A DNA stretch of 41,869 nucleotides. It comes from Sulfoacidibacillus thermotolerans (GTDB lineage Bacteria > Bacillota > Bacilli > Alicyclobacillales > SLC66). The stretch spans positions 1-41,869 of the forward strand of contig NZ_MPDK01000024.1 of assembly GCF_003144315.1 (NCBI RefSeq). The letters run 5' to 3'. The notes under the pieces were generated by a model. The model ran no database searches, had not been told where the DNA came from, and was given only the letters and a program-made list of their open reading frames with translations. Shown in pieces: positions 8,297 through 10,955 of the stretch. Both the position numbers and the translations under genes were made by a program. Positions within the stretch are counted from its first letter, which is position 1; every line of letters begins with the position of its first letter.

Positions 8297-9070
8297 ATGC
8301 TGGTTCGGATTCAAGGCATAGTTCTAAAAACATACTCAAAAGGTGAAGATGATCGGTTACTTCTCATCTTAACTCCGCAACTGGGTTTTTTGCGGGTACT
8401 TGCTCCGCGTGCTGAACGACCAGGTCATGCGTTGTCAGCAGCAACTCAGGTACTCGCAAAAAGTGATTTTATTTTGTACAGACCCGCTGCAGGAATTGCC
8501 GTGATCAGACAAGCATCATTACTAGATGCGTATGCTGACTTACGAAGTCATGTGGAGCGGCTTTCTTATGCACTTGCCATGCTGGAGTTGTTTTCGCGCA
8601 TAAGCGAGGCAGTGCAAGACTGTGCACGAGAAGAATTTGTCCTGGTTCAATTGTATAAGGATATGATAGCTAGTTTGGAGCGACTACGCACTGCCGATGC
8701 ACCGCTTTTTGCGCTTGCACATTTAGCCATTTTGACTTTGCCGTGGCTTGGACTGTCACTTTCTTATACAACATGCGCTGCGTGTTTTTCATCCCTACCA
8801 CATGAAACATCTGTTTTTAGTTTTTTACATGGCGGTTTTCTTTGTCCATCTTGTCAAAGAGAAGAAAAAAATCAGGGTGCACTTATGTTGCATCCACGCG
8901 TGCGTCTGCTTATGGAAAAAATGAGTCAGGCTCATGTTGATCAGTTGCGCGAAGTTCGTGTCGAGGTGAATTTGCAAAAGCAAATTTACGTTGCAATTGC
9001 ATTGTTTTTGCGTGAATATGCAGGAATTGTCTTGCGTTCTTTTGAAGTAATTCAACAATTGCAGGAATAG
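8297..9070 (+). CDS. recO: DNA repair protein RecO
   Basis: A 257-aa recombination mediator that works with RecR to load RecA on SSB-coated DNA. The N-terminal OB-fold begins LVRIQGIVLKTYSKGEDD. A four-cysteine zinc site is visible (CAAC in the middle, CPSC about 30 residues later). ATG 8297 has AAGGAG (8284-8289) 7 bp upstream. In Bacillus glyQS would follow; here a convergent minus-strand gene does. Confidence 0.92.
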   Translation: MLVRIQGIVLKTYSKGEDDRLLLILTPQLGFLRVLAPRAERPGHALSAATQVLAKSDFILYRPAAGIAVIRQASLLDAYADLRSHVERLSYALAMLELFSRISEAVQDCAREEFVLVQLYKDMIASLERLRTADAPLFALAHLAILTLPWLGLSLSYTTCAACFSSLPHETSVFSFLHGGFLCPSCQREEKNQGALMLHPRVRLLMEKMSQAHVDQLREVRVEVNLQKQIYVAIALFLREYAGIVLRSFEVIQQLQE

Positions 9071-9080
9071 AGAATTTGGA

Positions 9081-9111
9081 TAAAAAAAGCCACTTTGTTT
9101 TCTCAAGTGGC
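9081..9111 (-). terminator. terminator of the small minus-strand gene
   Basis: GCCACTT (9089-9095) pairs with AAGTGGC (9105-9111). On the minus strand the stem is followed by a T-rich run (complement of TAAAAAAA, 9081-9088), so it terminates leftward transcription and supports the gene at 9163-9375. On the plus strand no T run follows. Confidence 0.7.
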
Positions 9112-9162
9112 TTCGCGTACAATAGAGTCAGTTGCAACTTTAGAGATTCAGCTTGTGGTTTG

Positions 9163-9375
9163 TCACTGAGGAAGAGAAAAAAAGTGTGCAAACCGATAGT
9201 CTGAGAAAACAAAAATGATCCCAGTGACAGCACCCATCCAAAAATATCGGCTTTTCATCGTCTTTCGATTAAAGCCAAATGGAGTTCCCTTTTCATAAGA
9301 GAAAAAGCGTGCAGACACAAAGCCACATATAATAATTAAGACAAGGCGGGCTAAAATTTTTACAAGAATATGCAA
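9163..9375 (-). CDS. small membrane protein of unknown function
   Basis: A 70-aa protein with two hydrophobic segments (HILVKILARLVLIIICGFVS and WMGAVTGIIFVFSDYRF) separated by a basic loop. The family is not recognised. The start is a TTG at 9375 with AGG about 9 bp upstream. Support comes from the terminator at its end and from its place in the gap where Bacillus carries glyQS. It is convergent to recO and divergent from ccpN. Confidence 0.55.
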   Translation of the reverse strand: MHILVKILARLVLIIICGFVSARFFSYEKGTPFGFNRKTMKSRYFWMGAVTGIIFVFSDYRFAHFFSLPQ

Positions 9376-9476
9376 ACGATTGAACCTACCTTTCTAGTTT
9401 CCGTTTATTCATAGATTGATTGTACCATGCCGCTTTCGTTTGCGCCAAGTCATGCAGGAATAGGTCAGCGAGGTGA

Positions 9477-10118
9477 AAAACGATCGAACTGTCAAAACGA
9501 CAACAGCAAATTGTCGCTATTGTTCGCGATCGCGGTCCGATTACTGGGGAGCGCATTGCTGACGAATTGTCGCTTACACGTGCAACACTGCGTCCTGACC
9601 TAGCTATTTTAACCATGGCGGGAATTTTAGATGCGCGCCCGCGGGTTGGGTATTTTTATATCGGCGATCATCATGCAAAGGACTTAGTGGGCGACTTGTT
9701 TCGTAAATACCAAGTGAAAGATTACAAATCGCTGCCCGTTGTCGTTCATGAACATACAACGGTATATGATGCGGTTGTTACGATGTTTTTAGAGGATGTA
9801 GGCACACTTTTTGTCGTGCGTGATGAAGGCGTTTTAGTTGGTGTTGCGTCGCGCAAAGATCTGCTCAAAGTTGCTATTGGCCAGTCCAATCTACATGAGG
9901 TGCCTGTTTCAGTTGCTATGACAAGAATGCCAAATATCACGACCATTGATCTAGAAGCCACGATGTATGATGCAGCGCGTAAATTAATAGAGGCCGAAGT
10001 CGATTCGCTCCCTGTCGTTCGCTGTGGGAGTGAACAACAACTCGAGGTGGTCGGACGAATTACCAAAACTACTGTGACAAGGCTTGTTGTTGAGCTTGGT
10101 TCGCTGCGAAATGTCTAA
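9477..10118 (+). CDS. ccpN: transcriptional repressor CcpN (HTH-CBS), start codon unresolved
   Basis: A repressor of gluconeogenic genes with an N-terminal winged HTH and two CBS domains. The frame after TGA 9474-9476 reads KTIELSKRQQQIVAIVRDRG, matching the CcpN N-terminus, then GERIADELSLTRATLRPDL as the recognition helix; CBS domains follow from about residue 80. There is no ATG, GTG or TTG at the family start. A GTG at 9473 would give the family sequence only if the run of five A (9476-9480) had four. ATC 9483, 6-7 bp after GAGGTGA, is the other candidate. The left end given is the first codon of the open frame, not a proven start. ppsR follows after 18 bp. Confidence 0.8.
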   Translation, partial: KTIELSKRQQQIVAIVRDRGPITGERIADELSLTRATLRPDLAILTMAGILDARPRVGYFYIGDHHAKDLVGDLFRKYQVKDYKSLPVVVHEHTTVYDAVVTMFLEDVGTLFVVRDEGVLVGVASRKDLLKVAIGQSNLHEVPVSVAMTRMPNITTIDLEATMYDAARKLIEAEVDSLPVVRCGSEQQLEVVGRITKTTVTRLVVELGSLRNV

Positions 10119-10136: not shown

Positions 10137-10955
10137 ATGGAATTTCATTTACCGGCGATCGTGTACGTAGTTTCAGATTCAGTGGGGGAAACTGCCGAGT
10201 TTGTGGTGCGGGCGGCTGCGAGTCAGTTTGATCATGGAAATTTCGAAATCCGGCGCTTTTCATACGTTGACTCCGTTCAAACGATTCAAGAAATTGTTGC
10301 GGCAGCAGATGAAATGGGTGGGTTTATTGCATATACATTGATTCTACCAGCTCTTCGGGAGGCGATGCGCGCAGAAGCAAAGCGTGTGGGCGTTCGCGCA
10401 GTTGATATTATGGGGCCGATGATGTCTGCGTTTGAAGACGTTTTTAGTGCAACGCCAAAGTTGCGACCAGGTTTAGTCCACCAATTGGACGATGAATATT
10501 TTCGACGGGTGGAGGCGATCGAATTTGCAGTTAAATATGACGACGGTCGCGATGTTCGAGGGTTGTTGCGAGCCGATGTGGTCCTTGTAGGAGTTTCGCG
10601 CACTTCAAAAACGCCACTAAGCATGTATTTAGCTCATAAACGCGTGCGTGTGGCTAACGTGCCACTCGTTCCTGAGGTTCAGCCGCCAGATGAATTATTT
10701 GAACTTCCCCGAAATCGTGTGGTTGGTCTTACGATTAATCCAAAAGAGTTAAATGTGATTCGCCAAGAGCGATTGCGCCATCTTGGACTTCACGAACAAG
10801 CGTATTACGCAAGTGAACAACGAATTTTAGAGGAATTAAATTATGCAGATTATGTGATGAAGCAGCTGGGGTGTCCTGTGATTGATGTTTCACGGCGCGC
10901 TGTAGAAGAAACGGCAGGTATCATCTTAAGCTTGATCGAGGCGCGGGAAAGATAA
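10137..10955 (+). CDS. ppsR: pyruvate, phosphate dikinase regulatory protein
   Basis: A 272-aa bifunctional kinase/phosphorylase of the DUF299 family (YqfL), which inactivates and reactivates PPDK or PEP synthase by ADP-dependent phosphorylation and phosphate-dependent removal. The N-terminal VYVVSDSVGETAEFV and the P-loop-like GVSRTSKTPLS are diagnostic. Pairing with ccpN is conserved and fits joint control of the PEP-pyruvate node. ATG 10137 has a GGGGG stretch upstream. Confidence 0.92.
   Translation: MEFHLPAIVYVVSDSVGETAEFVVRAAASQFDHGNFEIRRFSYVDSVQTIQEIVAAADEMGGFIAYTLILPALREAMRAEAKRVGVRAVDIMGPMMSAFEDVFSATPKLRPGLVHQLDDEYFRRVEAIEFAVKYDDGRDVRGLLRADVVLVGVSRTSKTPLSMYLAHKRVRVANVPLVPEVQPPDELFELPRNRVVGLTINPKELNVIRQERLRHLGLHEQAYYASEQRILEELNYADYVMKQLGCPVIDVSRRAVEETAGIILSLIEARER

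Follow-up and report, generated by a model that had tools for sequence, protein, structure and literature searches.

The closest described system is ccpN of Staphylococcus aureus, in which initiating ribosomes were mapped to an AUA codon (Kohl et al. 2026, Nat Commun, PMC13009471). Passages of that paper state that the non-canonical start and the extended Shine-Dalgarno (SD) sequence of S. aureus ccpN are conserved with Bacillus subtilis, and give the yield from AUA as ∼10% (poor medium) to 30% (rich medium) of that of an AUG version. The authors suggest that, in S. aureus, gluconeogenesis is repressed when nutrients are abundant. In B. subtilis, CcpN is described as a repressor of the gluconeogenic genes gapB and pckA (PMC7028823). 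In our literature search, a non-canonical ccpN start was found treated only in the passages of PMC13009471. In Listeria, non-canonical starts are reported as fixed in six conserved genes (2026, PMC13068326). The starts of Listeria infC (ATT) and rnhC (ATC) are given there as experimentally confirmed, reporters rank ATG > ATA > ATT, and the word ccpN is absent from the main text of the paper. Like ccpN, Listeria rnhC is a conserved gene fixed on ATC, but it is an unrelated gene and the passage on it offers no regulatory reading (PMC13068326).

The window, the whole stretch of DNA analyzed here, comprises 41,869 nucleotides of Sulfoacidibacillus thermotolerans (contig NZ_MPDK01000024.1) and includes a ccpN gene for which we find a similar organization. 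It is very probable that this ccpN is intact and that its translation starts at a non-canonical AUC codon at 9483, with GAGGUGA six bases upstream. The window shares with S. aureus the gene itself and an Ile-family start behind an extended SD (PMC13009471), but differs in that the codon is AUC rather than AUA, that an in-frame stop rules out any canonical alternative, and that the start is proposed here from sequence. Outside this gene, the inefficient AUU start of Escherichia coli pcnB reportedly limits the level of its protein, to judge from the title of a study; gene, codon, and phylum all differ from those of the window ccpN. The mechanism is thus already known from AUA in S. aureus ccpN; the contribution of the window is a lineage where a stop codon leaves no room for a canonical start. 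New here are the breadth of the survey and a codon that differs by gene, AUC in ccpN and AUU in infC. The features of the locus are as follows.

9470..9476, plus strand: Shine-Dalgarno sequence GAGGTGA, complementary to 16S rRNA, six bases before ATC 9483; it holds the apparent GTG (9473-9475) and the TGA (9474-9476)
9474..9476, plus strand: in-frame stop TGA read from the sequence, which blocks any start farther upstream; shared, three codons before ATC, by G001, G002, G006, G013, and others
9477..9482, plus strand: putative untranslated spacer AAAACG between SD and start; its length differs by single bases among relatives
9483..9485, plus strand: proposed start codon ATC (AUC); an Ile codon here in 152 of 178 genomes, ATC in 130
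9483..10118, plus strand: ccpN coding sequence, 211 codons plus stop, with HTH_11 and two CBS domains by profile matches
10137..10955, plus strand: regulator of PPDK/PEP synthase, yqfL-like (NF003742, 321 bits, cut-off 225), 18 nt after ccpN

Read directly, positions 9470 to 9491 are GAGGTGAAAAACGATCGAACTG, that is, GAG and GTG, then AAAAA and CG, followed by ATC GAA CTG. The GTG occupies 9473-9475, the five A 9476-9480, and the ATC 9483-9485. In the ccpN frame, the order of codons is TGA, AAA, ACG, ATC, GAA, CTG, and the window has no ATG, GTG, or TTG in this frame from the TGA to the conserved KTIEL. The GTG is one base off the ccpN frame and opens an ORF of just 29 codons; the first canonical start listed in frame is TTG 9567, which lies inside the HTH domain match (residues 8-59, frame counted from 9477). 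An earlier, sequence-only reading of this DNA had placed the GTG one base out of frame and found ccpN to lack a normal start, and the frame and the TGA confirm both points. It had also proposed that, with four A, the gene would read M-K-T-I-E-L as in Bacillus. Relatives of the Bacillus type with an in-frame GTG instead read V-S-T-I-E-L.

The protein is CcpN (NCBIfam NF053704, 314 bits over the whole protein against a curated cut-off of 260). It has an N-terminal HTH_11 (PF08279) and matches PF00571 in two stretches, corresponding to two CBS domains. The CBS part matches the YqzB structure 3fv6 at 1.3e-44; the best solved relatives, 3fv6 and two further YqzB entries, cover this part only (query residues 67-206) and are uninformative on the N-terminus. 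Position 1 of profile NF053704 aligns with the Ile/AUC codon (residue 3, frame from 9477), and the curated model thus begins at the proposed start. The gene order of ccpN followed by the PPDK/PEP-synthase regulator is also found in other Bacillota.

Both 16S 3' ends that we located in the genome have the sequence GGATCACCTCCTTTCT, with which GAGGTGA pairs over seven bases. By duplex energy, this is the best anti-SD site within 9400-9600 (-10.3 kcal/mol), a value that 0.34% of the window's plus-strand 10-mers attain. As a word, GAGGTGA occurs five times in the window versus 3.98 expected, which is not above chance. Its meaning therefore comes from position and conservation, not rarity, and read in this manner, what looked like a GTG start forms the core of the Shine-Dalgarno sequence. 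In the predicted fold of 9430-9540, both the SD (at its GGUG) and the AUC (at its A) are paired, which, if real, would hinder initiation.

Close relatives share this layout. We searched 41 genomes, the window's own and 40 relatives; 38 had a match, and starts were read in the 30 that were obtained as loci. Within the genus, the sequence is GAGGTGAGCAACG-ATC in G002 and GAGGTGAGTAATG-ATC in G001; within the family, it is TAGGTGAACCCCT-ATC in G006 and TAGGTGATCTCCT-ATC in G013. In all four, a TGA lies three codons before the ATC. The comparison with close relatives that the sequence-only reading had called for thus finds TGA, spacing, and ATC in common among genomes of the same genus and family. 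Across eight aligned loci, the ATC does not vary and the stretch between GGTGA and ATC varies in bases and in length. The A run is not conserved among relatives (GAGCAACG, GAGTAATG, GATCTCCT), whereas the ATC is. Two genomes, G008 and G014, have GAGGCGAAAACC-ATC, without even a GTG. In G001 (locus L004), a single base creates an ATG that immediately precedes the conserved ATC and follows GAGGTGA by only 3 nt, possibly a recent gain of a canonical start.

To extend the comparison, loci were taken from a class-wide draw of 398 genomes (380 with a match), a search of the order (59 genomes, 55 with a match), and 30 chosen genomes. The resulting 184 loci are a non-random sample, composed of best-scoring loci, about one per genus, hand-picked among the matches listed, plus 52 members of the order that are strong, nearly full-length matches and include the window's own genome. 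Four duplicates (L001, L032, L033, and L034) and two loci with no N-terminal match (L164 and L165) were dropped, leaving 178 genomes from 123 genera and 50 families. At the position of ATC 9483, these genomes have ATC (130), ATA (19), ATT (3), ATG (10), GTG (6), TTG (5), CTG (3), ACT (1), and TTC (1). An Ile codon is therefore at the start position in 152 of 178 genomes, and a canonical ATG, GTG, or TTG is at exactly the same place in 21. At least one genome with an Ile codon was found in 44 of 50 families, and with ties resolved by listing order, ATC ranks first among the codons of 35 families. On these counts, an AUC start is the usual state of ccpN in the sample. The CTG codons belong to three loci of genus g10 (L167, L168, and L169, from G387, G407, and G370) and follow GGGGGTGA or GGAGGTGA. 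Together with ACT and TTC, they make up the five of 178 genomes in which the codon is neither Ile nor canonical. For the ACT and TTC cases (G009 and G054), the start is likely to be one codon downstream or two upstream.

The choice among Ile codons at this position differs from that in the rest of the gene. At residues 2-60, Ile is encoded by ATT 483, ATC 348, and ATA 106 times in these genes. From each gene's own use, ∼57 ATC, 16 ATA, and 79 ATT are expected among the 152 genomes, versus 130, 19, and 3 observed, though a chi-square on this bias overstates significance owing to the shared ancestry of the genomes and to non-random sampling. As the codon counts indicate, the AUH codon at the ccpN start is conserved among species beyond its amino acid and is not an ordinary isoleucine. 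In 50 of 178 genomes, spread over 21 of 50 families, the stretch from the in-frame stop to the codon contains no canonical start; among Ile codons where no canonical start is possible, 45 are ATC, five are ATA, and none is ATT. An in-frame GTG at -3 accompanies the Ile codon in 69 of 152 genomes (54 ATC, 13 ATA, and 2 ATT). The AUC bias is similar in these two sets, so the 69 genomes probably do not use the in-frame GTG as their main start. Gene finders that consider only ATG, GTG, and TTG would leave ccpN mis-started or truncated in at least the 50 genomes of 178 without a canonical upstream start. A ccpN with an AUC start is also open to misreading as frameshifted, as happened in the sequence-only reading.

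Distances from the SD were compared as well. A search for exact SD words missed interrupted SDs such as GGTGGTGA and was replaced by a count of the gap from GGTG to the Ile codon and by duplex energies. Among the 152 genomes with an Ile codon, 67 have a gap of 6 nt, 53 of 7 nt, and six of 3, 5, or 8 nt; GGTG is absent from the 25 bases upstream of the codon in the other 26. Gaps of 6 and 7 nt coexist within seven families and also within one genus. The added A that had appeared anomalous is therefore a common one-base-longer spacing. Upstream of the Ile codon, 42 types of codon occur at -2 and 36 types at -1, versus a Glu codon at +1 in 135 genomes and a Leu codon at +2 in 149. With translation from the GTG, a single-base change in spacer length would put ccpN out of frame, which leads us to conclude from the comparison that the spacer between SD and ATC is non-coding. 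In genomes with neither ATG nor GTG at -1, the best anti-SD pairing (10-mer start) is located 15-17 bases ahead of the codon in 136 of 145. Seven of the 152 Ile-codon genomes, including the same-genus G001, have an ATG or GTG directly before the ATC, and in these the median anti-SD distance is 18 versus 16 elsewhere. Given this shift, the position of the SD seems to track the start really used.

Four other explanations can be considered. That translation starts at the adjacent ACG 9480, and not at ATC 9483, is highly unlikely. The ACG is one base from an ATG, G002 also has ACG, and the sister species G001 has ATG there. However, an SD spacing of just 3 nt would result, the place is taken by CCT in G006 and G013 and by ACC in G008, and it is the Ile codon that is kept across the 152 genomes, not the variable codon at -1. 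Still less probable is that ccpN is a recent frameshift or pseudogene, with its protein poorly made or truncated from TTG 9567, even though that codon is the first listed in-frame canonical start. The remaining gene is open and highly conserved, with 89% identity to G002 and no internal stops. A start within the HTH match would cut the DNA-binding domain, and the genomes of 21 families that likewise have no canonical upstream start are at odds with a lesion of this lineage. Of the proposal that a recent frameshift left the repressor to start from ATC 9483, the ATC start stands and the recent frameshift does not, because this is the commonest state of the ccpN family in the sample.

The possibility of a sequencing or assembly error, in which the true run would have four A and translation would start normally at GTG 9473, was also raised by the sequence-only reading. 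The draft genome comprises 135 contigs, and homopolymers are prone to sequencing error. Nevertheless, G001, G002, G006, and G013 have the same 1-nt-longer spacer and the TGA with different bases, and a 7-nt gap recurs in 53 of 152 Ile-codon genomes, which makes an error so unlikely that we give it almost no weight. Equally little weight falls to programmed slippage, by which the five A directly after the GTG would shift GTG-initiated ribosomes into the ccpN frame, because the A run is missing in relatives with the same layout in which ATC is conserved, and G008 and G014 lack the GTG itself.

Initiation at AUC 9483 remains the preferred explanation. The ccpN gene combines the features of the AUH-start type: the conserved N-terminus has no canonical start, a strong SD is at the proper distance, and the AUH codon is conserved. 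Under the mechanism we propose, GAGGUGA would position the ribosome on the AUC six bases downstream, and the bases between the two would be untranslated and their number free to vary. Work in S. aureus suggests that initiation at AUC would occur with fMet. By analogy with the AUA version in S. aureus, AUC would lower initiation, and weak initiation would keep CcpN, a repressor of sugar metabolism, scarce. The level of CcpN may perhaps also respond to growth conditions, as was measured for the AUA version. The sequence-only reading had suggested that slippage at this site sets the level of the repressor. Slippage is very unlikely given the relatives, as described above, but control of the level at this site is plausible if it operates through inefficient AUC initiation, as published S. 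aureus reporter data would allow. From the breadth of the distribution, weak initiation seems to be an old trait of this repressor that has been retained.

A second non-canonical Ile-codon start is seen in infC of the same genome. The sequence is AGGAGGTGTTGTTCA-ATT-AGC-AAG (L185:1495-1497, contig C59 of G000), and the ATT follows AGGAGGTG by 7 nt. We found no canonical codon between AGGAGGTG and the ATT, nor farther upstream up to 15 codons from the anchor motif; the open frame that holds the ATT also has a TTG, 12 codons ahead of it. In E. coli, infC is autoregulated through IF3. We compared infC across 30 genomes, in 26 of which the motif was anchored (25 in a first pass); the motif failed in L186, L188, L191, and L192, which were left uncounted. 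By the SD rule, the start is ATT in 21, ATC in three, ATA in one, and ATG in one. Two adjoining codons are candidates in L196 and L197, and in both the Ile codon directly before Ser-Lys is ATT. In two of the 26 (L199 and L209), canonical codons are in frame upstream of the chosen start.

The two genes are alike in having an SD and an Ile-family start, but infC uses mainly AUU and ccpN mainly AUC. Both codons are usually regarded just as inefficient starts, which raises the question of why ccpN has retained AUC and infC AUU. The identity of a non-canonical start codon may be a selected, gene-specific trait of bacilli (AUC in 130 of 152 for ccpN; AUU in 21 of 26 for infC, from a subset of genomes), an idea for which we see the case as evenly balanced. 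We hypothesize that AUC could be favored over AUU on account of weaker pairing between its third base and the initiator anticodon, or of a different treatment of the two codons by IF3. If true, the third base, poorly paired with the initiator anticodon, would set a gene-specific rate of initiation or a gene-specific response to IF3 or to the supply of initiator tRNA.

Upstream of ccpN, a scan of 9050-9560 for promoters and terminators found both of its promoter-like sites on the minus strand and none on the plus strand. One terminator-like site is inside ccpN at 9498-9516, compared with 0.6 expected by chance. By eye, an inverted repeat, AGCCACTT...AAGTGGCT, can be read at 9088-9112, after recO; on the minus strand, a T run is behind it, and its loop is longer than the terminator scan allows. 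This repeat may be the end of a minus-strand transcript. Between recO and ccpN, at 9163-9375, is a minus-strand ORF of 70 codons with a hydrophobic N-terminal stretch.
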